64,000 nucleotides of DNA from Planctomycetaceae bacterium. Lineage in GTDB: Bacteria > Planctomycetota > Planctomycetia > Planctomycetales > Planctomycetaceae. Shown one piece after another: positions 18,541-37,932 of the stretch. Where the stretch lies: contig PBSL01000056.1 in the NCBI GenBank assembly GCA_002726205.1, positions 1-64,000 on the forward strand, written 5' to 3'. Position 1 is the first letter of the stretch. Each line of letters begins with the position of its first letter. The translations under genes were made by a program, and so were the position numbers. A model generated the notes under the pieces. The model did not search any database and was not told where the DNA came from. It worked only from the letters and a program-made list of their open reading frames with translations.

Positions 18541-20976
18541 ATGAGCAGCCCCACCAGCCCATCATCCGAAATGGTCGCATCACCTGCCGCCCGCCGACGG
18601 TTCATCCCCGTTGCGCTCGGCCTGGCCGCGCTCGTCGTCCTGGGACTGTCCCTGGCCTGGTCGCGACGTGGCGAACCGGGGCTGAACGAAGACCAGGCCC
18701 GCAACCTCCAGGAAATCGAACACCTCGGCGGCTTCGTTCTCGGTGACCTCGCCCTGCCGCAGATCGCCGATGCCCTTCGTGACGGAGATCCGACCGGGTT
18801 GACGTCGGTACTCGCCGAGGACTTCAGCGGCCGGATTTTTCGTGAGCCGGCAAGAACAAGCGACCACGGCTTCGCCCGGATCTCCACCTGGCAACACGAC
18901 AACCAGAAGACGGCCGGCGCTGACTGTGACGCGAAAGAACTGGTCGCCTGGATGATGAATCACCAGCAGAGTTTCGAGCAACTCGACTCGGTCGGGCTGA
19001 AGGTCAAGCTGATGGAACCGGTGACGTCGGGAAAACTCGACGGCCCCTGGCATGGCACGTTGCGGTTGCGGATGGCCGGTCGCGGTGCCGGCAACGGTCC
19101 ACGCGAGATTCGCATGCAACTCGCCTGCCGACTCGACGGCCTCGACGACGAGCTGCCCAACCGCAAAGGCTGGCTGAAACGCCTCGAGGTGAGACGGGTC
19201 GACATCTCCGAGAGCGACGCGCCGTTGATGGAGGAAATGACTCTCCAGACCGGGATCCAGGTCGCGCGGCTGCAGGACAACTGGAAAGGCATCAGTGGCC
19301 AGCAGACACCGGCACTGACCGGCGGTGTCTACCTGGCCGACTACGATGGCGACCGACAGATCGACTGCCTGTTGACTGATCTCAGGGGGCTGGCCCTGTA
19401 CCGCGGGCTGGGAGGGGGGCGTTTCCGGAACGTGACCGCGGCGGTGGGATTGCCGGCCAGTCACACCGATCTCCAGGCCGCCTGGGCCGACTTCGACAAC
19501 GACGGCGACCCCGACCTGGTCCTGGATCGCCGGATCTATCGCAATGCCGGGGGACTCCGATTCGAACCGCTGGACCCCTCGACCACCGGACTCGAACTCG
19601 AAGACAACGTCGGTTTTGCCGTGGCCGATGTTGACCGCGACGGACTGGTTGACCTGTATGTCGTGGGCATCAGCCACCGCACGACCGGACAGAAATGGAT
19701 CGGTGCAAACGACAGTAACCGCAACCAGTTGTGGCACAACGAGGGAGACCTGACGTTCACCAATTCCACCGCTTCCAGCGGTACCGCCGGAAGCGGGACC
19801 AGCACCTTTGCCGCGGTCTTCTTCGACGCCAACGCCGACGGCTGGCCCGACCTGATGACCGCCTGCGAGTTCGGAGAAAACGACTTCTGGCTCAACAACG
19901 GCGACGGCACGTTTGCTCGATCGCCGTTACCGGAAATCTACGGCGGCTTCTCGATGGGACTGACCGTCGGCGACATCGACAACGATGGACGAGCCGACCC
20001 CTACCTCGCCAACATGTACTCGAAGGCGGGCGAACGGATCGTGGCCAACCTGCCACGGGGCATTTATGCCGACGACGTCGACCGCAAGCTCCGCGACTTC
20101 GTCACCGGCAGCGAGCTGTACCACAACAACTCCAGGGGAGGTTTCACGAGGATCGGCCAGCAGGCCGGTGTCGCCGATGTCGGCTGGGCCTACGGACCCG
20201 CCTACGTCGATCTCGACAACGACGGTCAACTGGACCTGTATGCCCCCGCCGGTTTCCAGAGTGTCACGCCCGATCGACCCGACGGCTGACGCTGTGTCTG
20301 GCTGGCTGTCGTGTCACAGCCGTTCAATACCAATGCCGCCACGCCGGCGCTTCGCGAGATCGATCGATCCGCGGGCGAGTTCTGGGTTTCCAATCCCTGG
20401 GAATTTGCCATTCGCCGCGAGAACCTCTCGGGCTACGAACGCAACGCCGTCTTCCTGAACCTCGGCAACGCCCGCTTCGCCAACATCGGTCACCTGACAA
20501 CCGCCGACAACAACGGCGATGGACGCACGGCCATTGGTTGCGACATCACCGGTGACGGACGGCCCGAGTTGTTCGTACGACAGGCCGGCGGTGGTCCGCT
20601 GAGGATCTATCGCAATCGTTTTCCGCCCGCCCACTACCTGACCGTCTCGCTGCAGGGGTCCTCCAGCAATCGCCAGGGCATCGGGGCCCGCGTGATTGCC
20701 CATCTCGACAAGACGACGATTCGCCGCGAGCTGTTCCCCGTCGCCAACTTTCTTTCCCAGGCGCCGGCACGGCTCACGCTCGGACTCGGCCAGGCCGACC
20801 GGATCCGTCGACTCGAGATCCGCTGGCCATCGGGAATCGTGCAGATCCTGAAAAATGTCGCCGTCGACCGGCACCTGGTGATCAAGGAAACCAGGGCCAC
20901 AGGTCAGGTCACCGACACGCCGACGGCTCACGACAGCCCCAGCAGCTCGCGGATTTCTTCCCAGGGTACCAGGTAG
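18541..20976 (+). pseudogene. FG-GAP/ASPIC-UnbV (CRTAC1-like) protein interrupted by one in-frame TGA
   Basis: The frame from ATG 18541 is open to a TGA at 20287-20289, then continues in the same frame to TAG at 20974-20976. Both halves belong to one protein of about 811 positions. The first 582 residues have an N-terminal hydrophobic helix and FG-GAP repeats (DYDGDRQIDCL, DFDNDGDPDLVLD, DVDRDGLVDLYVVG, DIDNDGRADPYLAN). After the TGA come SQPFNTNAAT, DITGDGRPELFVRQ, then the UnbV domain (GIGARVIAH, LTLGLGQADRIRRLEIRWPSG). GGAGG precedes the ATG. The TGA may be a nonsense mutation, a sequencing error, or recoded; a 6-bp hairpin follows it (20304-20321). A GTG at 20311 could restart translation. 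The 3' end overlaps the opposite gene by 49 bases. Confidence 0.8.
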
Positions 20977-22120: not shown

Positions 22121-22227
22121 GCGTTGCGCCTGATCGGTGAGGTTGTGCGAGCCTCGCTGACGTGCCAGAATCTCCGGCAGCGGTCTTTCCGACACGACGA
22201 TCGGAGTTTCGCTCTCGGAAGACGACG

Positions 22228-23406
22228 ATGACTGAAGAGAAACCGACGATCGAGGAAATCCTGGCGATGGCGCGGGGCCAGGACGGTGGCGGCGAGGCCG
22301 ATCCACCTGCCGATGACGTGGTGGCCGAACAGTCCGGGACGCCCGAACAGTCCGAGTCCAGCCCAGCTCCTTCGCCCGCCTCTGACATCCTCGCTGCGGC
22401 ACGCGCCCAGGACGCGGCCGGCGACGAAGAACCGGCCGCCACGGAAAAACAACCGGCCCCGGCAACAGGTGTCTCGGACATCCTGGCCGCCGCACGTGCC
22501 CAGGACACCGGTGGAGACGCCGGAGCGGCCGGTGACGAAGAACCCGCCGCCACGGAAAAACAACCAGCCCCGGCGACAGGTGTCTCGGATATCCTGGCCG
22601 CCGCACGTGCCCAGGACACCGGTGGAGACGCCGGAGCGGCCGGTGACGACCAACCCGCCGCACCTGCGGCAGAGACTGCCGAACAACCGGCAGCCGCGGA
22701 TTCGGCCGGCGGCGAACGTCCAAGCGTCCAGGAGATGCTGCAGCAACTTCGGCAGACCGACGGCGCCACGGCGGACCAGGACCAGGCAAGCGACACAACG
22801 GCCCCGCGACCGATGCCAACCCGACCTGCCGCCGCGGCTGTCCCGGTCGCCGCAACCGTTGCTCCCGGGGATCTCTCACGACGCAGCGTGCTGGGCGCAG
22901 TCGTGCTGGCGCCGCTGCAACTGGTCGCCACGCCATTTGCTGCTGCCTGGACGGCACTGACGGCGGCAACCACCGCGATGTTGCTGGGAACAGCCAGGTT
23001 CATGTTCCCCAACACGCTGGTCGAACCATCGATGACCTTCAAGATCGGCCCGCCCAGCGACTATCCCCCGAACTCGGTCTCGGCAAAATTCAAGGCCGAG
23101 CGGGGTGTGTGGATCGTGCGGTCGACGATGTACAACGCACAGGACCAGATCGTCGCGCTGGCCAGCGTCTGCACGCACCTGGGCTGCACGCCCAACTGGC
23201 TCGACGGTGAACAAAAATTCAAATGCCCCTGCCATGGCTCAGGGTTTTATATCTCGGGTGTCCACTTCGAAGGCCCTGCGCCACGTCCGCTCGAACGCGT
23301 CGGGCTGAAGATCGCAGCCGATGGGATGCTGGAGGTCGACAAGAGCAAGAAGTTCCAGGACGAACTGGGTCAATGGGAGGACCCTGCGTCTTACGTCAAC
23401 GCCTGA
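22228..23406 (+). CDS. Rieske iron-sulfur protein with long repeat-bearing N-terminal arm
   Basis: The 392-residue high-potential 2Fe-2S subunit of a cytochrome bc-type quinol oxidising complex. Box I CTHLGC (Cys315, His317, Cys320) and box [10 protein letters not shown] (Cys333, Cys335, His336) carry all cluster ligands and the disulfide pair. The first 200 or so residues are a disordered Ala/Pro/Glu-rich arm with four copies of a (S/E)ILAxARxQD motif, and a fifth weaker copy ([12 protein letters not shown]). One or two hydrophobic helices (about 215-255) anchor the domain. ATG 22228 follows GGAAG by six bases. It heads the fourteen-gene respiratory run, 19 bases before cytochrome b. Confidence 0.92.
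22378..22650. repeat. Near-identical 111-bp tandem repeats inside the Rieske gene
   Basis: Units start at 22378 (93 bp, lacking six codons), 22471 (111 bp) and 22582 (identity continues to about 22650, then diverges). The two later units differ at only a few silent positions over their shared length. Each encodes a [10 protein letters not shown] helix followed by an Ala/Glu/Pro linker. The high DNA identity points to recent duplication. Confidence 0.85.
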
Positions 23407-23425: not shown

Positions 23426-24241
<816 letters not shown>

Positions 24242-24255
24242 CCTGACTGACTCGT

Positions 24256-25689
24256 ATGCACGTCGATCCGTTCATTGATCCGCACCCCAACCTGACACCT
24301 GCGGTGTTGCAGGGACTGGGCTGGTTGTACCTGGTGCTGTCGGTGATGAATGTCTTCTGGTGCGCACGGGTCCTGAAGCAGGACGAGCACGTCCGCATCC
24401 GCTTGTTCGGAATGCTCGGCAAGGGAGTCGAAATCCCCCGGGCTGCCAGCTGGGCGATTTATTCGTCGATTCTCGCGACGATCGCCTTCATGCACATGTC
24501 CTGGAGCAGCGCCGAGTACATCGGCAAGTTCTGGCTGTCGCTGACGCCCGATGGACTGATCGAGTCGTCGATCGACTCGATCGTGGCCAATCCGGTCAGC
24601 TACTTCGTGCTCTCGATCGCCGGCACGGCGATGATGATCTTCTTCCGCGAGTGGCTGGTCAAGCCGACTGTCGGCTGGATTATGCTCAACGTCGCCATCC
24701 TGTTCATGGCGCTGTCGATGACCGATTACGACTTCCGGCAAATCGTCGGCAAGCCCGACAACGTACCGATCGTCGCCCTGTTGTACCTGGTGGGCGGTTT
24801 CACCTGGCTGTACTTTTTCCACGCGGTGGAAAACGACCGGCGGCTGGAAAACTGGGATGGCGAGGGAGCGATCCCAGTCCTCAACAACGAGGACAACGAG
24901 AAGGTGCTCGTCTGGCCCGACCTGGTCTACGCCGAGTTGATCTGCATGATCGCAGTCACCACGGTACTGATCGCCTGGGGAATCGTGCTCGACGCGCCGC
25001 TGGAAGAACCCGCCTCCAGCGCCAAGACACCCAACCCGTCAAAAGCCCCGTGGTACTTCCTGGGACTGCAGGAAATGCTGGTCTACTACGACCCCTGGCT
25101 GGCCGGCGTGGTCTTTCCCACCATGATCATCGGTGGGCTGATCGCAGTGCCCTACATCGACTTCAACAAGGTCGGCAACGGCTACTACGTCTTCAAGCAA
25201 CGAGCCTTTTCAGTAATCACGTTCCTGTTCGGGTTTCTCACGCTCTGGGTGGCGATGATCATCCTGGGCACGTTCCTGCGCGGACCCAACTGGAACATCT
25301 TCGGGATCTACGAGTTCTGGGATGTCCACAAACTGGTCGCCCTCAACAACGTCATGCTCTCGGAACTCTTCTGGGTGGACCTGGTGACACCGATCACCGG
25401 TTTTGCGCCCGAGTACAAGAACAGCGATCCCGAGAGCGTCAAGACGCTGATGATTCTCATCCGCGAAGCCCCCGGTTTCATTGCGCTGATTGCCTACTTC
25501 ACGGTTCTGCCGCCGCTGATGGCGATTTCGTGCCTGAAGACCTTCTTTCATCGGATGGGATTTCTCCGCTACATGGTCTTCACTCACTTCCTGTTGATGA
25601 TGGCCGCGCTGCCTCTGAAAATGGTGCTTCGCTGGACCTTCAACCTGAAGTACCTCGTCAATATTCCCGAGTGGTTCTTCAACATCTAG
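24256..25689 (+). CDS. Cytochrome b, C-terminal (subunit IV-like) protein with extra N-terminal membrane domain
   Basis: A 477-residue membrane protein. Residues from about 255 match the C-terminal part of cytochrome b/subunit IV, including the quinol site region, which reads KAPWYFLGLQEML (264-267 APWY) where bc1 and b6f proteins usually have PEWY. The glutamate used as proton acceptor in that motif is therefore absent at its usual place. The first 250 residues contain about five further hydrophobic helices and are much longer than a plain subunit IV (about 160 residues). At the C-terminus two more helices follow the core. It probably pairs with the preceding b6-like subunit. Confidence 0.88.
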   Translation: MHVDPFIDPHPNLTPAVLQGLGWLYLVLSVMNVFWCARVLKQDEHVRIRLFGMLGKGVEIPRAASWAIYSSILATIAFMHMSWSSAEYIGKFWLSLTPDGLIESSIDSIVANPVSYFVLSIAGTAMMIFFREWLVKPTVGWIMLNVAILFMALSMTDYDFRQIVGKPDNVPIVALLYLVGGFTWLYFFHAVENDRRLENWDGEGAIPVLNNEDNEKVLVWPDLVYAELICMIAVTTVLIAWGIVLDAPLEEPASSAKTPNPSKAPWYFLGLQEMLVYYDPWLAGVVFPTMIIGGLIAVPYIDFNKVGNGYYVFKQRAFSVITFLFGFLTLWVAMIILGTFLRGPNWNIFGIYEFWDVHKLVALNNVMLSELFWVDLVTPITGFAPEYKNSDPESVKTLMILIREAPGFIALIAYFTVLPPLMAISCLKTFFHRMGFLRYMVFTHFLLMMAALPLKMVLRWTFNLKYLVNIPEWFFNI

Positions 25690-25704: not shown

Positions 25705-28700
25705 ATGCCAGCTTCCGACAACTTCTTCCGTGACCTGAACAAGACCCACGTGGTCTTTGCCGGCAACGCCGTCGTGTTGCTGTTCGCCACGCTGTGGATG
25801 TTGCACGACGACCACAACGACGAGTGGCGGACCTGGCAGCAGAAATGGGACCGCGTCGAAGCTGCCCGCCTGACCACCCTCGGAAACGACCAACAGGAAA
25901 CGCTGCTGCGACAGCAGGCACAACTCAACGAACAGATCACGCAGGCCAGGAATCGTGCCCTGACGATCCAGGCCAAGCTCACCGACCTGCAGAACACCCT
26001 CAAGCAACAAGACGACTCCGTCACCGCAGCACTTCGCAGCACCAAACCGCTGCGAACCGACCGTGACGTCGCCCGTGCCAACTACGACCTGGCGATCCGT
26101 GACAACAATGGAACCGCCAAGGCAAAGCTCGAACTCTTCAAGCAGGCTCAGCAAAACGCCGATGCGGCTGAACGGAAGCTTCGCAACGCCCAGGACATTG
26201 CCAAGGCAACCCAGGCTGACATCACGAAGCTCCAGGGAGTTGCCGGCGAAGACCTCAAGGCCCTCGAAGACCTCCAATCCTCGCTTTCACTCTCTCTGGA
26301 CTCCCGGGCGGAGATCGCCCCCGAGGGCAGCTTCCAGACCTTCAAGCGATGGTTGATGGAGCAACCCATCGTCGACGGTTTCAACTCGCACCACAGGGTT
26401 CGCCAGGACTGGTTGCCCGGCCAGCAGATCACGCTCGGGATGGCAAAGACGGCTCGCTTCGACCGCTGCCGCACCTGTCACCTGGGCATCGACCGGGTCC
26501 TGCCCGGGAATCGTCCCGAGTTTCCTCACGGCGACGTTGACTCCAGTGCCGACCCACGCGAGTGGGTCGCCGCGGGAAAGTTTCCGCACCCCTTCGCAAC
26601 GCACCCCCGCACCGATGTCTTCGTGACCGCCTCCAGCCCGCATCCGTTGACCGAGTTTGGCTGCACCTCGTGCCACGACGGGCAGGGATCGGCTACCAGT
26701 TTTCATCATGCCCAGCACGGTCCCGACCACCCGGCTGAACACGAGAAGTGGAACCGGGAATACGGATACCACCCGAACCACTTCTGGGAATACCCGATGC
26801 CGGCCCGGCGGTTGCGCGAGTCGGCCTGCCTGAAATGCCATCACACGGTCGTCGAACTCGGCGTCAACCCGAAGTTCGGCCCGACCGCGCCCAAGTTGTA
26901 TCGAGGATGGCAACTGGTACAGCAGTTCGGCTGCTTCGGCTGCCACGAGATCACCGGGTTCGAAGGTCCCACGCCGATTGGCCCCGATCTGCGGCTTGAA
27001 CCGGCCACCGCCAAGCAAAAGGCGGCCCTCGATATCGATCCCAACCAGGTGGCCGGCCGGATGCGCAAGGTCGGTCCGAGCCTGGCCCACATCGGTCTCA
27101 AGACCAACGCCGCCTGGCTGAACGCGTGGATCACCAGGCCGGCATCGTTCCGCAAGGCCACCCGGATGCCGCAGTTCTTCGAACTCAGCAATCAGCAGGA
27201 CCAGCCGCACGGCAAGAAGTTCAATCCCGTCGAGGTCGCGGCCGTCACTCACTACCTGCTCGACCGCAGCAAGCAGGCCGGGGGAGCCGATCAACTCGAT
27301 CAGCCACCAGCCGGCTACAAGCCCGATCTGCAGCGGGGAGCGATCGCCTTCCGCGAGCGTGGCTGCCTGGCCTGCCACACCCACGAGGCCGTCCCCGACC
27401 CCGACGGCAAACTCTCGGCGAACTTCGGCCCGGACCTCTCAAAGATTCACTTGAAAATTCGCCACGACCAGGGCAAGCAGCCCGGTGATCCCGACAACAG
27501 CGGCTTCCGCTGGCTTTACTCCTGGGTCCGTAAGCCGCAACGGCACTTCCCCCGCACGCGGATGCCCGACCTGTTCCTGGTTCCCACGGGCAAGGGCAAA
27601 ACGCTGATCGATCCGGCCGCCGACATCGCCGCCTTCCTGCTGTCGAAGGGCAGCGGCGATTTCGCCGATGTCGACACCGGTAGCCCCGAGTTCCGCGAAA
27701 CACTCGACGAGCTGGTGAAACTCTACGCCGGGAAGATCCTCGGAGAAGCCGCTGCCAGGACGATGATCGAGGACGGCCAGCCTTTCCCCGAGAGCGATCC
27801 CGAGAAGATCAGTGGCGACGAGAAGGAACTGGTCGGCCCGAAGCTGACACACGAGATGAAGCTGGCCTATATCGGCCGTCGCACGATCAGCCAATACGGC
27901 TGTTACGGCTGCCACGATATCCCCGGCTTCGACACTGCCCGACCGATCGGGACCAAGCTCGAGGACTGGGGCCGCAAGGACCGGAGCAAGCTGGCCCTGG
28001 AACACATCGAGGAGTTTCTGCACCACCACGGCGAAGCCGACGGCTCGAGCACGCGTGAGCGAGTCGACCAGGAAATGAAACGAGCCCGGGCCCACGCGTT
28101 CAGCGACCAGGGACTGTTCGCGAGTCCCGAAGAAGAACAGGCCGCAACCCGTGGAGCCTTCTTCTACGGCAACCTGCTCAAACACGGCCGCGAAGGCTTC
28201 CTCTGGCAAAAACTCCGCGATCCCCGCAGCTACGATTTCAAGAAAATCGAAACAAAGGGATACGACGAACGACTGAGAATGCCCAAGTTCACGTTCGACA
28301 CCGACCCGACCCGCAACGAGGAGGCGATCGAGGCGATCGCGACGTTCATCCTGGGCCTGGTTGCCGAACCTCCCCCGGTCAAGTACGTCTACACGCCAGG
28401 ACCCCAGGTCGCCGATCGACTCGAAGGCGAACGCTTGCTGCAGAAGTACAACTGTGGCGGTTGCCACATGCTCGAGGCGCCCGAGATCCGGGTCCGCTCG
28501 ACCGTCGACGGCCTGCCCTCGGCCGACCTGGCCGCCACCGACCATCCCTCGGGGCGGGACCTGCTGTTGAAAATCCGACCGGCACGCCAAATCGACCTGG
28601 TCGCCGACAAGAACGGGCAGGTCGAATTCTCGTTCCACGGACTCTCGGTCAACCGGCCCGATCCCGACGACACCGATCTGGATCCTGACGAGCGCGAGTA

Positions 28701-29574
28701 CTCCTACAACCTCTGGGAACCGATCGAACTCCGCGTGACCACGACCGACAAGGACGGCAAGCCCAGGACCGAGATCCGGACCGTGCTGCCCTCGGCACGG
28801 TTGCTGGTAGCCGAGGCGGATCTGCTCGAAGAAAAACCGGCACGTGGCGGACAGTTTGCCGAATGGCTGATGCAGGACATCTTCTCCCGGGACAAGGATC
28901 CCAACCGCGATCTCGCCTGGCAGGCCTCGCCACCTCCGCTGATCGCCGAGGGCATCAAGGTGCAAACGCCCTGGCTGTACCGCTTCCTGAAGAACCCCAA
29001 CAAGTTGCGGTACACGACCAGGCTGAGAATGCCGCGGTTCAACATGGACGAGGATGAGGCGCGGGCGCTGGCCAACTACTTCGCCGCCGCCGACAACGCC
29101 GGCTACCCCTACCAGCCGGTGCCCCAGCGACAACCCGATTATCTCGCTCTCCGCAACGGGGAATTCAAGTCGGCTGCCGGACACGACTACCTGACCGAGT
29201 CGTGGCGACTGCTCAATGCCCCGCTGTGCATCAAGTGCCACTCGCTGGGCGGTCGACCATTCAAGGCGGTCGATCCGAAAAAGGACATCCGGGGACCCGA
29301 TCTTGACCTGACCCGCGACCGGTTGCAGCCGGACTGGGTCCGTGTCTGGCTGTCCAATCCCAAGTGGTTCACCCCCTACACCTCGATGCCCCAGCCGTTC
29401 GCTCGCAACCAGAAGCTCTTCCCCGAACATTTTTCTGGCGACAGCCTCAAGCAGACAATCTCGGTCCGCGATGCCCTGATGAATTACAACCGCCTGATGC
29501 ACGACATCGGCAAGTACGAGCCACCCGCAAAGCCCAAACCGGCCGCGGGTCAGCAGAAAGCGGCCAAGCCATGA
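25705..29574 (+). CDS. Octahaem cytochrome c with N-terminal membrane helix and coiled-coil arm
   Basis: A 1289-residue cytochrome. A single hydrophobic helix (about 13-31) is followed by about 180 residues of Gln/Ala/Lys-rich helix, predicted coiled coil. Eight CxxCH haem sites follow: CRTCH (about 254), CTSCH (318), CLKCH (373), CFGCH (409), CLACH (552), CYGCH (731), CGGCH (915) and CIKCH (1173). Several are followed downstream by a methionine in an RMP context (TRMPDLF, LRMPKF, LRMPRF), typical of class I cytochrome c modules. It sits where bc complexes encode cytochrome c1, so it probably takes electrons from the Rieske centre and passes them to the oxidase. Its stop overlaps the next start (ATGA). 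Confidence 0.9.
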   Translation: MPASDNFFRDLNKTHVVFAGNAVVLLFATLWMLHDDHNDEWRTWQQKWDRVEAARLTTLGNDQQETLLRQQAQLNEQITQARNRALTIQAKLTDLQNTLKQQDDSVTAALRSTKPLRTDRDVARANYDLAIRDNNGTAKAKLELFKQAQQNADAAERKLRNAQDIAKATQADITKLQGVAGEDLKALEDLQSSLSLSLDSRAEIAPEGSFQTFKRWLMEQPIVDGFNSHHRVRQDWLPGQQITLGMAKTARFDRCRTCHLGIDRVLPGNRPEFPHGDVDSSADPREWVAAGKFPHPFATHPRTDVFVTASSPHPLTEFGCTSCHDGQGSATSFHHAQHGPDHPAEHEKWNREYGYHPNHFWEYPMPARRLRESACLKCHHTVVELGVNPKFGPTAPKLYRGWQLVQQFGCFGCHEITGFEGPTPIGPDLRLEPATAKQKAALDIDPNQVAGRMRKVGPSLAHIGLKTNAAWLNAWITRPASFRKATRMPQFFELSNQQDQPHGKKFNPVEVAAVTHYLLDRSKQAGGADQLDQPPAGYKPDLQRGAIAFRERGCLACHTHEAVPDPDGKLSANFGPDLSKIHLKIRHDQGKQPGDPDNSGFRWLYSWVRKPQRHFPRTRMPDLFLVPTGKGKTLIDPAADIAAFLLSKGSGDFADVDTGSPEFRETLDELVKLYAGKILGEAAARTMIEDGQPFPESDPEKISGDEKELVGPKLTHEMKLAYIGRRTISQYGCYGCHDIPGFDTARPIGTKLEDWGRKDRSKLALEHIEEFLHHHGEADGSSTRERVDQEMKRARAHAFSDQGLFASPEEEQAATRGAFFYGNLLKHGREGFLWQKLRDPRSYDFKKIETKGYDERLRMPKFTFDTDPTRNEEAIEAIATFILGLVAEPPPVKYVYTPGPQVADRLEGERLLQKYNCGGCHMLEAPEIRVRSTVDGLPSADLAATDHPSGRDLLLKIRPARQIDLVADKNGQVEFSFHGLSVNRPDPDDTDLDPDEREYSYNLWEPIELRVTTTDKDGKPRTEIRTVLPSARLLVAEADLLEEKPARGGQFAEWLMQDIFSRDKDPNRDLAWQASPPPLIAEGIKVQTPWLYRFLKNPNKLRYTTRLRMPRFNMDEDEARALANYFAAADNAGYPYQPVPQRQPDYLALRNGEFKSAAGHDYLTESWRLLNAPLCIKCHSLGGRPFKAVDPKKDIRGPDLDLTRDRLQPDWVRVWLSNPKWFTPYTSMPQPFARNQKLFPEHFSGDSLKQTISVRDALMNYNRLMHDIGKYEPPAKPKPAAGQQKAAKP

Positions 29575-30431
29575 GCATCACGTCCCGATCATTGGCAACG
29601 TTTGCCCTCGCCTGCTGCGGCCTTGGCCTGGTCGCCGGCTGTGGGGGCGGAGCGTCGGCGAAGCCGGAAATCGTCTACAAGTCCAGCGGCAGCGACCAGG
29701 CTGGTGGAAACGGAAGTGCCGTGGCGGTTGCCGCGATCGACGGCACCGGCACATTCACCGGGACGGTCCAATTGACCGGGACGGCACCGCCACCGGACGT
29801 GATCGTTGCCAAGGGAACAGCCAAACGCGACGGAGAGGTCTGTGCCGCAACGGTGGCCATCGTCGACCAGTCACTGGAGATTGGCGAGAGCAACGGAATT
29901 GCCAACATCTTTATCTTCCTCGACAAGGCGCCGCCGGGTGCCCAGGTCCCGGCAGTTCCGACCGAGCCGGCGGTCTTCGACCAGAAAGGCTGTGTCTTCA
30001 TCCCGCACGCGATGGTCACCCGCACCAACCAGCAGGTTCTCGTCAAGAGCGGTGATGCGATCGGTCACAACACGCATACCTTTCCCAAGCGAAGTCGCGT
30101 CTTCAACCAGCTCATCCAGGCCAATGACCGCAAAGGGTTTCCACTGATCTACAACAGGGCCGAACGTGAACCCTTCCCGGTCAAGTGCGACATGCACTCC
30201 TGGATGCAAGCCTACCACCTGGCGATCGATCACCCCTGGGGCACCACGACCAATGCCAAGGGGGAATTCAAGATCGAAGGTGTTCCCGCCACGTCCTTGA
30301 CGTTTCGAGTCTGGCACGAAAGAGCGGGGGGGAAAGGCGGTTTCCTGGAACGTGCCTTGAAGATCACCGTCAAGAAGGACGAGACCGTCACACAGGACCT
30401 GAAATTCGCGTTGAGTGACTTTGGACAGTAA
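29571..30431 (+). CDS. Cupredoxin-like lipoprotein
   Basis: A 286-residue exported lipoprotein: hydrophobic signal then the lipobox VAGC near residue 21-24. Two beta regions follow. A plastocyanin-like part contains GHNTHTF and CDMHSWM, giving a possible His-Cys-His-Met set for a type 1 copper site. A carboxypeptidase-regulatory-like beta domain (GEFKIEGVPATSLTFRVWHE) closes the protein. It overlaps the octahaem gene by 4 bases and precedes a dihaem lipoprotein, so a role as copper electron carrier between reductase and oxidase is reasonable but unproven. The copper ligands are read from motif spacing only. Confidence 0.75.
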   Translation: MSITSRSLATFALACCGLGLVAGCGGGASAKPEIVYKSSGSDQAGGNGSAVAVAAIDGTGTFTGTVQLTGTAPPPDVIVAKGTAKRDGEVCAATVAIVDQSLEIGESNGIANIFIFLDKAPPGAQVPAVPTEPAVFDQKGCVFIPHAMVTRTNQQVLVKSGDAIGHNTHTFPKRSRVFNQLIQANDRKGFPLIYNRAEREPFPVKCDMHSWMQAYHLAIDHPWGTTTNAKGEFKIEGVPATSLTFRVWHERAGGKGGFLERALKITVKKDETVTQDLKFALSDFGQ

Positions 30432-30486
30432 AGACAACCATCGACCGTTCCCGAGGCCCGTCGGTGTTCCGACAGAGGACAGCAAG

Positions 30487-31908
30487 TTGAGTATCCGTCG
30501 CCACCTCCTGCCGTACCTGGTGCTGGTGCTGATGGTCGCCGGCTGCGCCGACCAATCCGCTAAGTTCAGCTCCGACCGTCGGATCGAAGAACTCGAGTCC
30601 GCCAGTACCGATGCCGCAAACAACCTCACCACCACCCTGCTGGAGCATTTCGGGACTCCCAACCGGCTGGTTTCCTGGAGCGCACTGCCGATCGACTACG
30701 GGACAGTCAGTGGGACGGTGCTCTCGGCCAGCGGCGACCAACTGCGACTTTCGCTGGAGACCAAACCTCCGGCCGGACTGGCCAACGTCGCGGTCGTCTT
30801 CGGTGAAAACAACCCCGGTCCGCGGCTCGCAGTCTCCTACGATTCGGACTCCCGAATGCTGACACTGGCACCCGGCACCAAGTCCGACACTCTGCCGCCA
30901 CCTGGCACCCGGGTTCGCCTGATCGGACACCGGTTACAGCAGGGACGCCAGTCGTTCATGCAGCACTGCATGCACTGCCACGGTGTCGCCGGCGACGGCT
31001 TTGGCCCGACGGCCCGCTACATCCGCAACCACAAGTTCAACCCGATGCCGCGAGACTTTCGCCGGGGGTTGTTCAAGTTCACCTCGACCAAGGACGGAAT
31101 TTACGCGAGCCGTGACGACCTGAAACGGACCGTCAAGCTCGGGCTGTCCGGAACCTACATGCCATCGTTCCTGCTGCTGTCGGACGCCGAACTGGATGCC
31201 GTCGTTGAATACGTTCGCTTCCTGGCAATTCGTGGCGAGACCGAGCGGAGACTGCTCGCTCACTTCCAGCCGTTGATCGACGCCAAGACGCCACAGGATC
31301 GGCAACCTCTCGAACAGGAACTCAACGGGGCAGGTTTCACCGAGGCGTTCAACGACGCCGTCTCCCTGGTTGCCGAGAACTGGCAGGCGGCCGAGGAGTC
31401 CGACAACGTGGTCCTGCCGACTGTCGCCCGTGTTCCCGACGGTTTCGAGTCCCGCAAGAAAGGTCGCGACCTGTTCATCGGCACCAAGATCAACTGTGCG
31501 AAGTGCCACGGTCCCCGCGGCCGCGGCAACGGCAGTTTTCTCAATGAAATCCAGGAGAACCCGGAAACCAAGAAGAAATATTCCGAGCCGGGCCTCTTCG
31601 ACAACTGGGAGAACAAGGTGTCTCCGCGGGATCTCACCGCCGGGATTTACCGCGGTGGTCGCCGCCCCCTGGACCTCTTCCGTCGCGTGACCACCGGCGT
31701 GAAGGGCACGCCGATGCCCGGTTTTGCCGCGTTGAAGGAGGAGGACCGCTGGCACATCGTCAACTACATTCTCAGTATCCCCATCGCCGGGGTGTTCCCG
31801 GAAAAAAAGCACGACCACCCCGACGGTGACGATCACAAGGCGGACAAGCCGGCACCAGCACCGACGAAGTCCACCAAGGGATCCGGATCCCCGAGCAAGG
31901 ACAAGTAA
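30487..31908 (+). CDS. Dihaem cytochrome c lipoprotein
   Basis: A roughly 473-residue lipoprotein with a signal ending in VAGC (LVLVLMVAGCADQ). Two class I cytochrome c modules are present: CMHCHG in the first half with YMPSFLLLSD as distal methionine region, and CAKCHGPRGRG in the second with GTPMPGF. The C-terminus is a Lys/Asp/His-rich tail. Start choice: TTG at 30487 follows AGAGGA and begins just before the signal; a GTG at 30415, overlapping the previous gene, would add 24 polar residues and spoil the lipoprotein signal. It ends six bases before coxB and is the likely direct electron donor to CuA. Confidence 0.85.
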   Translation: MSIRRHLLPYLVLVLMVAGCADQSAKFSSDRRIEELESASTDAANNLTTTLLEHFGTPNRLVSWSALPIDYGTVSGTVLSASGDQLRLSLETKPPAGLANVAVVFGENNPGPRLAVSYDSDSRMLTLAPGTKSDTLPPPGTRVRLIGHRLQQGRQSFMQHCMHCHGVAGDGFGPTARYIRNHKFNPMPRDFRRGLFKFTSTKDGIYASRDDLKRTVKLGLSGTYMPSFLLLSDAELDAVVEYVRFLAIRGETERRLLAHFQPLIDAKTPQDRQPLEQELNGAGFTEAFNDAVSLVAENWQAAEESDNVVLPTVARVPDGFESRKKGRDLFIGTKINCAKCHGPRGRGNGSFLNEIQENPETKKKYSEPGLFDNWENKVSPRDLTAGIYRGGRRPLDLFRRVTTGVKGTPMPGFAALKEEDRWHIVNYILSIPIAGVFPEKKHDHPDGDDHKADKPAPAPTKSTKGSGSPSKDK

Positions 31909-31913
31909 CGACT

Positions 31914-32786
31914 GTGAGCAGAATCTTCTGGTGCCTGTTCTTTACCGCCTGGCCGATCCTCGGGATTGTCGTCAGCGTGATCTCCCCCCAGATGAACTGG
32001 GGCTTTCCCGACAACCGGGAATCGGCCACTCCGCTGGGTGAGAGAATCGATGACCTGTTCTACCTGATCCTGTGTATCGTGACGATCGCCTTCATCGGCA
32101 CCATGGTCGTGCTGGCCTACGTGCTCTGGAAAGCCTCGAAGAACGAGGACGAGAAGGGCTGGTTCAGCCACGGCAGTCACAACCTCGAGGTCATCTGGAC
32201 CATCGTTCCCGCCGGCATCCTGCTGTTCATCGCGCTGTACCAGATGGATGTCTGGGCCATCTACCGCGTCCGTGACTACGACCTCAAGCAGCAAAACAGC
32301 CCCCGGCTGAATAACCTTGTCGCCGAGGTGATCGCCCGCCAGTTCGAATGGCGGATCCGCTACCCGGCCCCCGGAACGGTCTTCAAGTCAAAGAAGCAGA
32401 TCGACGACTGGTTGGCCAAGCCCCAGGCCGGGGATCTCTACACGGTCAATCATCTGCACGTGCCGCTGAACAAGGAAACGCTGATCTATCTCAAGTCCGG
32501 TGACGTGCAGCACTCGTTCTTCGTGCCCGAAATGCGGGTCAAGCAGGACGCGATTCCCGGGCAGAACATCGACATCTGGTTCACCGTCAACCGGGCCGGT
32601 GATTTCGACCTGACCTGCGCCGAGTTGTGCGGCTGGGGTCACTACAAGATGCGTGGTCGCGTAACGGCGATCGAAGATTTCAGCGGTTTCCTGCAGAAGT
32701 TGAAGGCCGAGCAGGATTTTGACGGCATCAGCAAGTCGGCCGGCGAAATTGCCGCGACCGGTCAGACGCAGGAGGTCACACGGTGA
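31914..32786 (+). CDS. coxB: Cytochrome c oxidase subunit II
   Basis: A 290-residue subunit with an extra N-terminal hydrophobic helix and the usual two-helix hairpin (about 45-70 and 95-115), then a cupredoxin domain. The binuclear CuA site is complete: Cys235-x3-Cys239-x3-His243-x2-Met246 in CAELCGWGHYKM, with an upstream His in DVQHSFF and the acceptor residues in ARQFEWRI. Unlike caa3 proteins it has no C-terminal cytochrome domain; the separate dihaem lipoprotein just upstream may fill that role. The start is GTG at 31914, and its stop overlaps the coxA start by 4 bases. Confidence 0.95.
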   Translation: MSRIFWCLFFTAWPILGIVVSVISPQMNWGFPDNRESATPLGERIDDLFYLILCIVTIAFIGTMVVLAYVLWKASKNEDEKGWFSHGSHNLEVIWTIVPAGILLFIALYQMDVWAIYRVRDYDLKQQNSPRLNNLVAEVIARQFEWRIRYPAPGTVFKSKKQIDDWLAKPQAGDLYTVNHLHVPLNKETLIYLKSGDVQHSFFVPEMRVKQDAIPGQNIDIWFTVNRAGDFDLTCAELCGWGHYKMRGRVTAIEDFSGFLQKLKAEQDFDGISKSAGEIAATGQTQEVTR

Positions 32787-34630
32787 GTACTCAAAATCCC
32801 GCCGATGCCGTCCAAGTCAACAGCGATGGGACAGTTGCCCAACACGCCGACCACCACGGGCACCCCGAGTTGACGTTCCTCCAGAAGTACATCTTCTCGA
32901 CCGACCACAAGGTGATCGGCGTCCAGTTCCTGCTCACCACGCTGTTGATGCTGCTGGTCGGCGGTTCACTGGCCCTGGGTGTTCGCTGGCAACTGGCCTG
33001 GCCCTGGCAGAGCATGCCTTTCTTCGGCCAGCGGTTCGCCGCCGAGGGCGGACAGATCTCGCCCGAGTTCTACACGATGCTCTTCACGATGCACGCCACG
33101 GTGATGATCTTCCTGGTGATCATCCCGGTGCTGGCCGGGGCGTTCGGCAACTTCCTGATCCCGCTGATGATCGGCGCCGACGACATGGCCTTTCCCCGGC
33201 TGAACATGCTCAGCTACTGGTTCATGTGGCCGGCGATCATCTGTTTTGGAATGAGCATGCATTTCGGAGGAGGACCGGCCGGCGGCTGGACCAGCTACCC
33301 GCTGCTGACCGCGTTGCCCGAGGCGGCGCCAGGATCGGGGGTGGCCCAGACATTCTGGCTGCTGGCGGTGACCTTCATCGGTGTCTCCTCGATGATGGGT
33401 TCAGTCAACTACCTGACAACGATCATTAACATGCGGGCCCCCGGCATGACGCTCTTCCGCATGCCGTTGACGATCTGGGGAATGTTCATCACGGCCATCC
33501 TGCAGGCGTTTGCACTGCCGGTGCTCACGGCGGCCGGGTTCATGCTGGTCTTTGACCGCGGTCTTGCCGGACTCTCCGGCGACATTCACACCTGCTTCTT
33601 CACACCCTCGGAAATCGTTGTCAACAACGCCGCCCCGACCGTCGGCGGTGGCCAGCCACTGCTGTGGCAGCACCTCTTCTGGTTCTACTCGCACCCGGCC
33701 GTCTACATCATGCTGCTGCCGGCCATGGGCATGGTCTCCGACATGCTGGCGACGATGTGCCGCAAGCCGATCTTCGGTTACAAGCCGATGGCCTACTCGA
33801 TGGCGGCAATCGCCGGGCTGGGCTTCATCGTCTGGGGCCACCACATGTACACCAGCGGGATGAACCCGGCACTGGGCATGACCTTCATGACCTCGACGAT
33901 CATGATCGCGCTGCCCTCGGCGATCAAAACCTTCAACTGGCTGGGCACGATCTGGGGGGGCAAGATCCGTTTCAACACGGTCACGCTCAACTGCATCGCG
34001 TTCGTCAGCCTATTTGTCGTCGGTGGACTTTCGGGCCTGTTCATGGCGGCGGTTCCCGTCGACATCTACATCCACGACACCTACTTCATCGTTGCCCATT
34101 TCCACTACGTCCTCTTCGGGGCGACGCTGTTTGGGGTCTTCGGGGCCATCTTCTTCTGGTTTCCCAAGATGTTTGGCCGAATGATGAACGAGCGACTCGG
34201 CAAGCTGCACTTCTTCCTGACGTTCCTGGGCGCCAATGGTGCGTTTTTCCCCATGCACATGCTCGGGGTCGCCGGGATGCCGCGACGCTATGCCGATCCC
34301 TACATTCACCCGTACCTGGAACACCTGATGCCGATGAACCAGTTCATGACGGTTTCGGCCATCGTGATGGGACTGGCACAGCTGCTGCTGATCGGAAACT
34401 GGATCTACAGTATTTTCTGGGGCCCGAAAGTCGGCCGAAACCCCTGGAACGCCAACGGGCTTGAATGGGTCGCCCCCTCGCCACCGCCGCACGGCAACTT
34501 CGAAGAAGTACCGACCGTCTACCGTGGCCCTTACGAGTATTCCTCGCCGCTGGTCGAGGGTCGTGACTTCCTGCCACAAACAGAAGTGCTGGCACCGTCG
34601 GCATCGGCGGACACCGACGACGACCACTGA
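32783..34630 (+). CDS. coxA: Cytochrome c oxidase subunit I, A2-type
   Basis: Catalytic subunit holding haem a and the haem a3-CuB centre; 615 residues and about 12-13 helices. CuB and cross-linked Tyr region: the helix VI motif reads FYSHPAVYIMLLPAMGM, so the usual GHPEV glutamate is Ala306, while Tyr302-Ser303 are present. This is the YSHPxV pattern that defines the A2 subfamily, in which tyrosine substitutes for the glutamate in the proton path. HHMYTSGM carries the two other CuB histidines and VAHFHYVLFGATLF the two axial haem histidines. GTG start at 32783 overlaps coxB. Confidence 0.96.
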   Translation: MSTQNPADAVQVNSDGTVAQHADHHGHPELTFLQKYIFSTDHKVIGVQFLLTTLLMLLVGGSLALGVRWQLAWPWQSMPFFGQRFAAEGGQISPEFYTMLFTMHATVMIFLVIIPVLAGAFGNFLIPLMIGADDMAFPRLNMLSYWFMWPAIICFGMSMHFGGGPAGGWTSYPLLTALPEAAPGSGVAQTFWLLAVTFIGVSSMMGSVNYLTTIINMRAPGMTLFRMPLTIWGMFITAILQAFALPVLTAAGFMLVFDRGLAGLSGDIHTCFFTPSEIVVNNAAPTVGGGQPLLWQHLFWFYSHPAVYIMLLPAMGMVSDMLATMCRKPIFGYKPMAYSMAAIAGLGFIVWGHHMYTSGMNPALGMTFMTSTIMIALPSAIKTFNWLGTIWGGKIRFNTVTLNCIAFVSLFVVGGLSGLFMAAVPVDIYIHDTYFIVAHFHYVLFGATLFGVFGAIFFWFPKMFGRMMNERLGKLHFFLTFLGANGAFFPMHMLGVAGMPRRYADPYIHPYLEHLMPMNQFMTVSAIVMGLAQLLLIGNWIYSIFWGPKVGRNPWNANGLEWVAPSPPPHGNFEEVPTVYRGPYEYSSPLVEGRDFLPQTEVLAPSASADTDDDH

Positions 34631-34664
34631 CCCACCGCGATTTCCCTACCACCGCACCGGTCTC

Positions 34665-35606
34665 ATGACTTCCACCCCCGCACCAACCACCTGGCTGCAC
34701 CGAATCGCCGTCGCCACGTGCTGCGCGGCGCTGCTGCCGATCATCATCGGGGCCATCGTGACCACGATGAAATGGGGGATGGCAATCCACGGCTGGCCGG
34801 GTTCGGACGGTCACGGCATGTTCAGTTATCCGTGGTTCTCCTCGGCAATCGACAAGTTCACCGAACACGGACACCGCCTGGCGGGAATTGTCATCGGCTG
34901 TTTCAGCATCCTGCTGGCCGCCTGGGCCTGGAAGACCGAATCACGACGCTGGGTCGCCTGGACCGGCGTGGGCGTCCTGGCCGGGGTGATCGTGCAGGGC
35001 CTGCTCGGAGGCGGCCGGGTGCTGGCCAACGATCCGCGCATGGCACTGCTGCACGGCCAGTTTGCCGCCGGCGTGCTGGCCCTGATGGGAACCATGGCCC
35101 TGGTCACCGGACGTGGCTGGCGCGAATCAACCAACCGGTTGCCCGCAACCATCACTCCTCGATTGAAAGCCCTGGCGCTGACCCTGCCGGCGGTCCTGCT
35201 TGTCCAGTCCGCCCTCGGCGGCTGGATTCGTCATCTCGGCGGCGGCCTCTTCGAACACGTCGGCTTTGCCCTTGTCGTACTGGTTGTTGCGGTGGCCACG
35301 ACCGTCGTCGCTTTCGGTCACGGTTCGAACTGGCTGAAGGCCAATGCCCGCCTGCTGCTGGTCGTGATCCTGGCACAACTCGCGTTGGGCGTTGCCGCCT
35401 GGATCAGCCGCTTCGGGTGGCCGCAGACCGGTTACGTCGCCGTCCAGGGAGCCCCGCTGCAGGTCGTGCTGCGAACCGGACACGCCGTCACCGGCCTGTT
35501 GTTGTTCGTCATCGCCGTGACCCTGGCATTGCGTGTTGCCCGCCTGGACTGGCTGGCACGGCGTGAACTTGTCGCCACAGTTTCGATCCAGGGAGGACCG
35601 GCATGA
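34665..35606 (+). CDS. ctaA: Haem A synthase (CtaA/COX15)
   Basis: Membrane monooxygenase that converts haem O to haem A for the oxidase. The 313-residue product has about eight helices and the four conserved histidine sites in the expected order: TEHGHRLAGI in the first half, LLHGQFAAG, then EHVGFAL and RTGHAVTGLLL in the second half. The N-terminal loop after helix 1 contains a long WGMAIHGWPGSDG stretch. It starts at ATG 34665, 34 bases after coxA, and its stop overlaps ctaB by 4 bases, so haem O and haem A synthesis are translated together. Confidence 0.93.
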   Translation: MTSTPAPTTWLHRIAVATCCAALLPIIIGAIVTTMKWGMAIHGWPGSDGHGMFSYPWFSSAIDKFTEHGHRLAGIVIGCFSILLAAWAWKTESRRWVAWTGVGVLAGVIVQGLLGGGRVLANDPRMALLHGQFAAGVLALMGTMALVTGRGWRESTNRLPATITPRLKALALTLPAVLLVQSALGGWIRHLGGGLFEHVGFALVVLVVAVATTVVAFGHGSNWLKANARLLLVVILAQLALGVAAWISRFGWPQTGYVAVQGAPLQVVLRTGHAVTGLLLFVIAVTLALRVARLDWLARRELVATVSIQGGPA

Positions 35607-36541
35607 ATTCGCTGGGACCGGTTTCTCCCGACTTCAATACCGCCTCGGTCGCACTGCCGCAACGGCGCGTGTTGTCGACCCGGCTGGTCGATTACGCCCA
35701 GCTCGCCAAGCCGCGAATTGCGGTCATGGCCCTGGTCACCGTGGTGGTTGGTTACACGCTTGCCGCCGGTGACGGCTGGCAGTGGCTCCGACTGGTCAAT
35801 GCCCTGGTCGGAATCGGGCTGGCCGCGGTCGCCTCGGGCGCCCTGAACCAGTACCTCGAACGTCATTCCGACCGGCTGATGTCGCGGACCGCCGATCGGC
35901 CCCTGCCGGCAGATCGGCTGGCAGCCACCGAGGTCGGGCTGGTCGGGCTGGTGTCGGCCATCGCCGGCCTGACCTGGCTTGTCGTGCTGGTCAACCCGGC
36001 CACGGCAATCGCGACCGCCGTCACGCTGGTGCTCTACCTGGCCGTCTACACCCCACTCAAACAACACTCGTCACTGGCCACCGCCGTCGGTGCGATCCCC
36101 GGAGCGCTGCCACCGGTGCTGGGATGGCTGGCCGCTGGCGGCACGCTTGACGCCGGGGCCCTGGCACTGTTTGGCATCCTCTTTCTCTGGCAGTTTCCTC
36201 ACTTCCTGGCCATCGCCTGGCTCTACCGCGACGATTACGCGGCCGCCGGGATGAAAATGCTGCCACGGGCGGCACGGCGGCCTGGACTGACCGGGATGCT
36301 TGGCGTCATCTACACCCTGGCCCTGATCGTCGTCTCGTCCTGGCCCAGCCAACTGGGCCTGGCCGGTGACGGTTACCTGGTCGCGGCATTCGTGCTGGGT
36401 GCCGGTTACCTCGTGGCCGCCCTCCGGTTCCAGTTTGCCGAGTCGGACCGGACGGCCCGGGGCGTACTCTACACCAGCCTTGTCTACCTTCCCCTGCTCC
36501 TGGGCGCCCTGACCTGGGATCACCTCCAGATGTTGCGCTGA
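35603..36541 (+). CDS. ctaB: Protohaem IX farnesyltransferase (haem O synthase)
   Basis: UbiA-family membrane prenyltransferase making haem O from haem B and farnesyl diphosphate. The 312-residue protein has about nine helices. The first aspartate-rich motif reads [21 protein letters not shown], where the usual first Asp of NxxxDxxxD is Glu. The second loop has [27 protein letters not shown] near the start is the standard CyoE/CtaB opening. The start ATGA overlaps the ctaA stop, and coxC follows 19 bases later. Confidence 0.94.
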
Positions 36542-36560
36542 AGCGCCTGGAAAACCACCG

Positions 36561-37484
36561 ATGTCACACACCTCGCACACCACCACCGCCCCGCTGAAGA
36601 TGGGCCTCGCCCTGCCCAACTCCAAGCTCTGCATGTGGCTGTTCCTGGGCACCGAGATCATGTTCTTCACCGCCCTGATCGGAACCTACCTCGTTCTGAG
36701 AATGTCGGCGAGGCTCCCGGGCGGAGAATCGGCGTGGCCGTCCAACGACATGACCCACATCATCACCTGGGCCGGCGCGCTCAATACGTTCGTCCTGATC
36801 GGGTCCAGTTACCTGGTCGTGCGGTCCCACGAGCGGTTGGGACGCGGCGAATTCCAGAAGGGCCTCAACGACCTGTGTCTTGTCTTTCTGTGTGCCGTGC
36901 TGTTCCTGGGCATCAAGGGCGTGGAGTATCACGGCAAGTGGGTCCGCGACATCCTGCCGGGACGAATCGCCGAGACTCCCCAGGCGGCCGTGCAAAAGGC
37001 CGTCAGACAAATCGGCCTGGCCGCCGCCGCCGACCCGACGTTGGCCGGGGTCCACCTGGGATTGGAGAACCGGCTGCGAGACGAAAAGCTGAGCCTCGAG
37101 CAGATGGAAACCGAGCTCGAGCAGTTGGTCCGGCACGAAGGCTATGGTGCCCTGGTACAACAGCAGGTTTCGATGGCCACGATTTTCAAGGACCGTACCC
37201 GGGATGAGAACGACGAGCTGGTGCCACTTTCCCAGGATCACCACGCCGCCTACTACATTCCCTACGGCAACATCTTCGCATCGTGCTACTTCACGATGAC
37301 CGGTTTCCATGCGATCCACGTGATCGTCGGCATGATCATCTTCTTCTTCCCGATCAAGAAGGGGCTGATGAAAGGCCTCGAGCATGGGGATGCACAGTAC
37401 GTTGAAAATGCCGGCCTGTACTGGCACTTTGTCGACCTGGTCTGGATCTTCCTGTTCCCGCTGATCTATATCGTCAAGTTCTGA
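36561..37484 (+). CDS. coxC: Cytochrome c oxidase subunit III with inserted hydrophilic domain
   Basis: A 307-residue subunit III. The core matches are [30 protein letters not shown] with the conserved lipid-side glutamate, [17 protein letters not shown] and [19 protein letters not shown]. Between the EYHGKW helix and the following [13 protein letters not shown] helix there is an insert of about 90 mostly polar, helical residues (about 130-225), longer than in common CoxC proteins. The insert probably projects into the aqueous phase and could contact partner proteins of the large complex. It is followed by the subunit IV gene after 34 bases. Confidence 0.94.
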
Positions 37485-37518
37485 TCGACCGCGCAGCAAC
37501 CAACCCGGAGCCGGCCTC

Positions 37519-37932
37519 ATGGCTGACGAACACACCCCCGGACATGACGAACACTCGCACGACGCCATCTTCCTGAAGGTGTTCCTGGTGCTGTGCGGTT
37601 GTACGGTTCTCTCGTTTGCCGCTGACTTCCTGCCGAATCTGCACGTCGGTGATGGCGTTGTCGGGACGATTGTCCTGGCGATCGCCGTGGCGAAGGCCCT
37701 GTGCGTGATGCTGTTCTTCATGCACCTGAAGTGGGAACAGAACTGGAAGTTCGTCGTACTGGCTCCCACGGTGATCCTCTCGGTCGGACTTTGCCTGGCC
37801 CTGGTCCCCGATATCGGCTTGCACTATTACAGCGTGCAATCGACCGAGACCAGGGAGGCGGCAACAGCTGCAGCTGCGGCTTCGGCTGCGGCACACGCGG
37901 ACAACGGGCAAGCCGAGAAAGACGGTCGCTGA
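37519..37932 (+). CDS. Cytochrome c oxidase subunit IV-like protein
   Basis: A 137-residue membrane protein of the prokaryotic subunit IV (CoxD-like) group, an accessory subunit of haem-copper oxidases. A His/Asp/Glu-rich N-terminus (residues 1-17) is followed by three hydrophobic helices, the second carrying AKALCVMLFFMHLKWEQNWK, the family hallmark. The C-terminus is an Ala-rich tail (TAAAAASAAAHAD). It stands between coxC and a DUF420 gene, separated by 34 and 3 bases. Confidence 0.85.
   Translation: MADEHTPGHDEHSHDAIFLKVFLVLCGCTVLSFAADFLPNLHVGDGVVGTIVLAIAVAKALCVMLFFMHLKWEQNWKFVVLAPTVILSVGLCLALVPDIGLHYYSVQSTETREAATAAAAASAAAHADNGQAEKDGR

Follow-up and report, generated by a model that had tools for sequence, protein, structure and literature searches.

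Haem motifs and helical arm of the octahaem protein

The window analysed here is a stretch of 64,000 nucleotides from a Planctomycetaceae bacterium (assembly GCA_002726205.1, contig PBSL01000056.1, positions 1 to 64,000 of the forward strand), and its open reading frame (ORF) at 25705–29574 encodes an octahaem cytochrome c of 1289 amino acids. The ORF begins with ATG, spans 1289 codons and is read from the + strand in the same direction as its neighbours; the haem motifs, arm segments and operon genes described below lie on the same strand. From the ORF call, family membership and synteny, we consider that the product is probably the subunit carrying the c-type haems in a b6f-like Rieske/cytochrome b complex of the Planctomycetota, a subunit that occupies the slot of cytochrome c1 or cytochrome f and is homologous to Kustd1485 of Kuenenia stuttgartiensis.

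The CxxCH motif occurs at residues 255, 320, 375, 410, 554, 733, 917 and 1175, and each of the 16 cysteines of the octahaem protein falls within one of these motifs; in 2000 shuffled versions of the protein the mean was 0.0075 CxxCH and the maximum one. With every cysteine used in this way, the eight haems claimed in the initial annotation are borne out by the motif count. By motif and alignment, haem 1 is assigned to CRTCH (residues 255–259, 26467–26481), haem 2 to CTSCH (320–324, 26662–26676), haem 3 to CLKCH (375–379, 26827–26841), haem 4 to CFGCH (410–414, 26932–26946), haem 6 to CYGCH (733–737, 27901–27915), haem 7 to CGGCH (917–921, 28453–28467) and haem 8 to CIKCH (1175–1179, 29227–29241), with haem 5 at CLACH (554–558, 27364–27378). 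Haems 4–8 are each followed by an MP segment that provides a candidate distal ligand, namely Met 488 (27166–27168), 620, 859, 1109 and 1228, respectively, so that the RMP-type distal segments of the initial annotation stand for these five haems and not for all eight; the candidates for haems 1–3 are His 300, 313 and 338. All or nearly all rows of a MAFFT alignment of 25 full-length homologues keep the eight motifs, the five methionines and the three histidines, and on this pattern haems 1–3 would be bis-His and haems 4–8 His/Met. Pfam matches in the protein are to cytochrome c domains only. A paralogue in the same genome or a recent duplication was rejected as an origin, since the genome gave just weak, partial matches of 30–40% identity over short stretches.

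An AlphaFold2 model of residues 215–1289 has a predicted local distance difference test score (pLDDT) of 76.7 and a predicted template modelling score of 0.77, and places a mostly beta insertion at approximately residues 922–1044 (28468–28836), between haem 7 and its methionine. In structure comparisons of the model, the haem-5 domain resembles SoxX-type class I cytochrome c structures (Z-score 11.2, root-mean-square deviation 2.3, 98 aligned residues), and the region around haem 8 weakly resembles cytochrome c1 (Z-score 6.2, root-mean-square deviation 3.7, 117 aligned residues), a match that, by the comparison tool's own caution, may reflect nothing beyond a common arrangement. A sequence search for a solved structure related to the whole protein returned none, and Foldseek returned no match to the modelled haem half at E ≤ 0.001. 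The NCBIfam model TIGR04485 (SoxX) reaches a score of 63.3 over residues 455–520, above its cut-off of 61, and automatic annotation may therefore label the octahaem protein as SoxX.

The N-terminal part consists of a membrane anchor and a long arm. Hydropathy reveals one strong hydrophobic segment, at about residues 14–34, within a predicted helix at residues 11–37 (25735–25815), in agreement with the single membrane helix of the initial annotation. AlphaFold2, run on residues 1–530 with 42 homologues, predicts beyond this anchor a helix at residues 40–132 (helix A, 25822–26100, with invariant W41 and Q45 at its base in the alignment), a turn at residues 133–137, and an antiparallel return helix at residues 138–204 (helix B, 26116–26316), with pLDDT block means mostly of 92–96 across approximately residues 90–180. 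The power at period 3.5, averaged over 62 homologues, reaches 0.36 and 0.52 in the two arm helices, compared with 0.18 (standard deviation 0.02–0.03) in shuffled sequences. Hydrophobic residues are enriched at heptad a/d positions (0.62 versus 0.25, and 0.75 versus 0.28), figures that describe the helices rather than test them, since the register was picked as the best of seven. The coiled-coil arm proposed at the outset is thus upheld as a predicted helical hairpin with 3.5-residue periodicity. Its tip (residues 116–137, 26050–26115) is better conserved than the shafts (0.58 versus 0.33–0.42) and is a candidate contact, no firmer than that because the segment boundaries were set with the predicted turn in view. 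No match to the arm half of the model was obtained with Foldseek at E ≤ 0.001, its listing consisting of generic antiparallel coiled coils, SMC arms and chemoreceptors among them, and a profile of the N-terminal part gave no match in the PDB.

Distribution, gene order and the Kuenenia homologue

A match to the octahaem protein is present in 35 of 59 relatives and, at E ≤ 1e-30, in 145 of 392 genomes sampled from the phylum, the latter being a count made without reading each match through and including many partial stretches. Named genomes were also scanned, and of the 533 loci the top 80 were kept; all of these carry planctomycete titles except L148 ('Candidatus Nealsonbacteria'), which is perhaps a misassigned contig, and with this coverage the scan does not establish that other phyla lack the family. 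Of the 75 full-length homologues that named genomes supplied, 73 have exactly eight CxxCH motifs, and the two with seven (L090 and L134) appear truncated by a contig edge. Nearly all loci with sufficient flank retain the order Rieske–b6–subunit IV–octahaem; only L165, which shows the octahaem gene alone, clearly departs from it. The search for the same architecture recovers eight-haem homologues behind Rieske, b6 and subunit IV genes across the Planctomycetota, and the cytochrome c1 position given to the protein at the outset is supported by its gene lying directly 3′ of these three genes in nearly every locus. Downstream, a gene for a cupredoxin-like protein follows in most loci with enough flank, several of which lack cytochrome oxidase (COX) genes.

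Kustd1485 is the octahaem subunit of the Rieske/cytochrome b complex of Kuenenia stuttgartiensis, where it is said to stand in for cytochrome f, and the reason for so many haems was described in 2025 as not entirely clear (PMC12954380). In genome G144, the Rieske protein is identical over 117 residues to PDB entry 9rk3_A, presumably the crystal structure of Kustd1480 reported in PMC12954380, and the genes behind it encode b6, an NAD(P) oxidoreductase, subunit IV and an eight-haem protein of 946 amino acids (L163, 7319–10156). Because the adjoining Rieske protein is identical to 9rk3 and the order fits Kustd1481–1485, we infer from gene order, rather than from a locus tag, that the 946-residue protein is Kustd1485. 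It matches the octahaem protein of the window by BLASTP at E = 5e-49 with the haem motifs in register, and an hhalign comparison of the two profiles gives a probability of 100 and E = 1e-125 over 915 columns starting from residue 13. The membrane helix and arm alone align with a probability of 97.1% (E = 6e-11). A second Kuenenia multihaem locus (L185, ∼505 amino acids) was rejected as a stand-in for the hexahaem Kuste4573, as it has four haems and sits among the genes of another system. Eight metagenome-assembled genome records (L082, L089, L113, L117, L129, L130, L146 and L152) are titled Candidatus Kuenenia stuttgartiensis, titles that look wrong; in the tree described below, the octahaem proteins of L082, L113 and L129 cluster with Planctomycetaceae or Isosphaeraceae-like rows.

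Operon partners in the window

Upstream of the octahaem gene, a Rieske iron–sulphur protein is identified by Pfam at 22228–23406; its ORF opens at 22162, and the ATG at 22228 is, on reading, the likelier start. The b6-type cytochrome b follows at 23468–24241 (Pfam and alignment, with the start codon at 23468 inferred). Counting its residues from the beginning of the stretch at 23375, the haem cN cysteine (Cys 88) is invariant in 32 of 32 aligned rows, and the histidine pairs 138/152 and 259/274 are spaced 14 and 15 apart, as in b6f. A hydropathy scan resolves three segments in this protein and does not demonstrate four helices. After a gap of 14 bases, a subunit-IV-like protein of 477 amino acids is encoded at 24256–25689 (Pfam and NCBIfam matches). 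Its Qo motif, KAPWYFLGLQEM, has P in place of E and recurs in 30 of 31 counted motif occurrences; this E-to-P form goes with menaquinol. A simple scan finds nine hydrophobic segments in the subunit-IV-like protein, compared with the three helices of b6f subunit IV.

Downstream, the ATG of a gene for a 286-residue cupredoxin-like lipoprotein (29571–30431; N-terminal LVAGC) overlaps the octahaem stop codon at 29572–29574. This protein was recognised by residue conservation: H166, C206, H209 and M212 are kept in 35–36 of 36 rows and suggest a type 1 copper site with an unusual C-x2-H-x2-M spacing. Cupredoxin-like genes occur as a tandem pair at L031, L040, L042, L044, L045, L172 and L174. A dihaem cytochrome c with a lipobox-like VAGC follows at 30415–31908 (Pfam; start approximate), and then an oxidase block comprising coxB, coxA, ctaA, ctaB, coxC and coxD at 31914–37932, of which coxB and coxA were identified by Pfam and the rest by reading. 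From Rieske to coxD, no NAD(P) oxidoreductase gene is present among the genes of the window.

The N-terminal part of the Rieske ORF (22162–22850) is a low-complexity extension with several copies of a helix-like (S/T)xx(E/D)ILAxARxQ motif, whose exact coding pattern occurs three times in its own genome, all within the Rieske gene. The motif is present in two to five copies in the Rieske protein of most COX-linked Planctomycetia operons, with none in L037 and L038, and in none or one copy in the Isosphaeraceae-like loci L040–L042; it is absent from the Rieske proteins of Kuenenia, of other Brocadiales loci with a Rieske match and of the sampled other classes. The repeat is possibly a multivalent docking element. 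Further upstream, an FG-GAP/ASPIC-like protein, recognised by reading, spans 18541–20976 and is split into ORFs at 18541–20289 and 20311–20976, which may reflect a frameshift, an error of sequencing or a genuine split.

Electron route, oxidase linkage and known systems

In the route that we propose, menaquinol would be oxidised at the Qo site formed by cytochrome b and subunit IV, and the Rieske protein would hand one electron to some haem of the octahaem subunit. The electron would then travel along the haem chain, first through three haems that are probably bis-His and then through five class I domains with His/Met haems, and leave it for the cupredoxin-like lipoprotein, the dihaem cytochrome c or both; these carriers would in turn feed the CuA centre of the aa3 oxidase encoded in the window operon. 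The cupredoxin-like lipoprotein is the likeliest first acceptor, because its gene starts on the octahaem stop codon and, at several loci that lack COX genes, still comes next after the octahaem gene. With the membrane helix as its anchor and with a conserved tip, the hairpin arm most probably lies along or around the dimer of cytochrome b and Rieske, where it would keep the haem chain in register.

The initial annotation had read the size of the protein as that of a wire or scaffold spanning to the oxidase, and the distribution of the family argues against this. The Planctomycetia operon usually continues with the cupredoxin-like lipoprotein, the dihaem cytochrome and the COX genes, so that in oxidase-linked operons two carrier genes lie between the octahaem gene and coxB. 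In Kuenenia, however, no oxidase genes are recognised near the octahaem gene, though the protein has eight haems and its arm is similarly long, and an NAD(P) oxidoreductase gene is found there instead; the same combination of eight haems, similar arm and no recognised oxidase genes nearby holds for three other Brocadiales, in which order the arm is 188 residues long compared with 215 in the window protein. The eight haems are likewise kept, with no adjacent oxidase, at the loci sampled from other classes and in Gemmataceae and Isosphaeraceae, the rest of these genomes and of the Brocadiales ones not having been searched for COX genes. A quickly built tree of 48 sequences, for which Brocadiales were chosen as the root, has moderate support at several inner forks and two long end branches; on it the oxidase label changes three times, compared with a mean of 16 for shuffled labels, and the linked loci lie inside the Planctomycetia; one gain of the linkage there, with later losses, is the simplest reading. 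Since the arm and the haem number are kept in lineages without adjacent COX genes, they are older than the oxidase link, and the distribution together with the tree leads us to reject the arm as a device made for that link. A fixed supercomplex, in which complex III and the aa3 oxidase are joined by the arm and haem chain and electrons pass with no diffusing carrier, fits the tightly packed and conserved run of octahaem and oxidase genes in most COX-linked Planctomycetia loci, and the dihaem cytochrome could serve as a bound bridge; clusters of Nrf-like genes (alternative complex III) and COX genes occur together, also in Planctomycetes, and the possibility that they make up compact electron-transfer systems has been raised (PMC4013037). 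Given the lineages that retain eight haems away from any adjacent oxidase and the clustering of the linkage on the tree, we nevertheless judge such a bridge unlikely. A speculative and rather doubtful extension, limited to aerobic Planctomycetia, is that the octahaem subunit, the cupredoxin-like lipoprotein and the dihaem cytochrome are joined into a fixed multihaem path within a Rieske/b6–aa3 supercomplex that docks through the hairpin arm with its conserved tip, which would be a III–IV assembly built on a subunit unrelated to cytochrome c1 or f.

Two further explanations assign the octahaem protein another function. It could act as an independent redox enzyme, such as a cytochrome of Sox-type thiosulphate oxidation placed in a respiratory operon by chance, as the TIGR04485 score and the SoxX-like fold of the haem-5 domain might indicate; these matches concern single class I cytochrome c domains, however, SoxX is about one-tenth as large and has seven haems fewer, and nearly all loci place the octahaem gene beside those for Rieske, b6 and subunit IV, which makes this reading highly improbable. 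Bifurcation of the Kuenenia type, in which NAD(P)+ is reduced and the multihaem subunit takes the high-potential electron, is suggested by the homologous octahaem subunit and by a b6 protein with haem cN, yet L163 has an NAD(P) oxidoreductase gene between b6 and subunit IV and the window operon has none, the gap there measuring 14 bases, and we regard bifurcation as having almost no likelihood here.

Several observations weigh against the assignment of the octahaem protein to the c1/f slot of a Rieske/cytochrome b complex and against the route drawn from it. Biochemical support among planctomycetes comes from anammox bacteria only, haems 1–4 are modelled poorly (pLDDT of 35–65 in places), and, as coiled-coil profile scores may be inflated, homology to Kustd1485 is weaker for the arm alone than for the haem part. 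For the cupredoxin-like lipoprotein, Pfam gives weak carboxypeptidase-regulatory-like matches and no cupredoxin, a sequence relative in the PDB is lacking, and its copper binding is read from residue conservation alone.

With its architecture known from Kuenenia, the protein is not of a new kind. What appears to be new, in an accessible literature that is incomplete for non-anammox planctomycetes, is the phylum-wide spread of the family and, in many Planctomycetia, its coupling to an aa3 operon without an NAD(P) oxidoreductase; an octahaem replacement of cytochrome c1 or f described there for anammox bacteria alone is thus widespread in the phylum. As the count of eight haems is independent of both the NAD(P) oxidoreductase and an adjacent oxidase, the reason for it must lie in the core complex, and the arm and eight haems appear to have evolved for the quinol-oxidising complex rather than for a link to a neighbouring oxidase. 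This also indicates aerobic organisms as a source of the complex for purification and testing.

Compared with known systems, the octahaem protein shares with cytochrome f of b6f and cytochrome c1 of bc1 the operon slot beside Rieske and cytochrome b and the presumed role of Rieske acceptor, but it has eight haems where cytochrome f has one and cytochrome c1 one or two, an N-terminal rather than a C-terminal anchor, and a coiled-coil arm; the relation looks like one of replacement. The b6-type cytochrome b with its haem cN cysteine and the separate subunit IV are those of a b6f complex, with the octahaem protein in place of cytochrome f. Alternative complex III consists of Nrf/Psr-like subunits and has neither a Rieske protein nor a cytochrome b. 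It resembles the window operon as a multihaem quinol oxidoreductase cluster beside oxidase genes, but its quinol subunits are NrfD/PsrC-like, whereas Pfam identifies Rieske, cytochrome b and subunit IV in the window. SoxX, a small single-haem protein, has in common with the 1289-residue protein the fold of one domain. The closest likeness is to Kustd1485, which has the same eight CxxCH motifs, N-terminal membrane helix and long helical arm, distal Met and His candidates that match in pairwise alignment, and a locus ordered Rieske–b6–(insert)–subunit IV–octahaem. The window protein is ∼340 residues longer owing to insertions that include the mostly beta segment behind haem 7, and its operon differs from Kustd1480–1485 in having the cupredoxin-like protein, the dihaem cytochrome and the aa3 oxidase in place of the NAD(P) oxidoreductase. 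Subunits of the Kustd1485 kind are expected to have long helices that wrap around the complex; for the window protein, a long helical hairpin is predicted.

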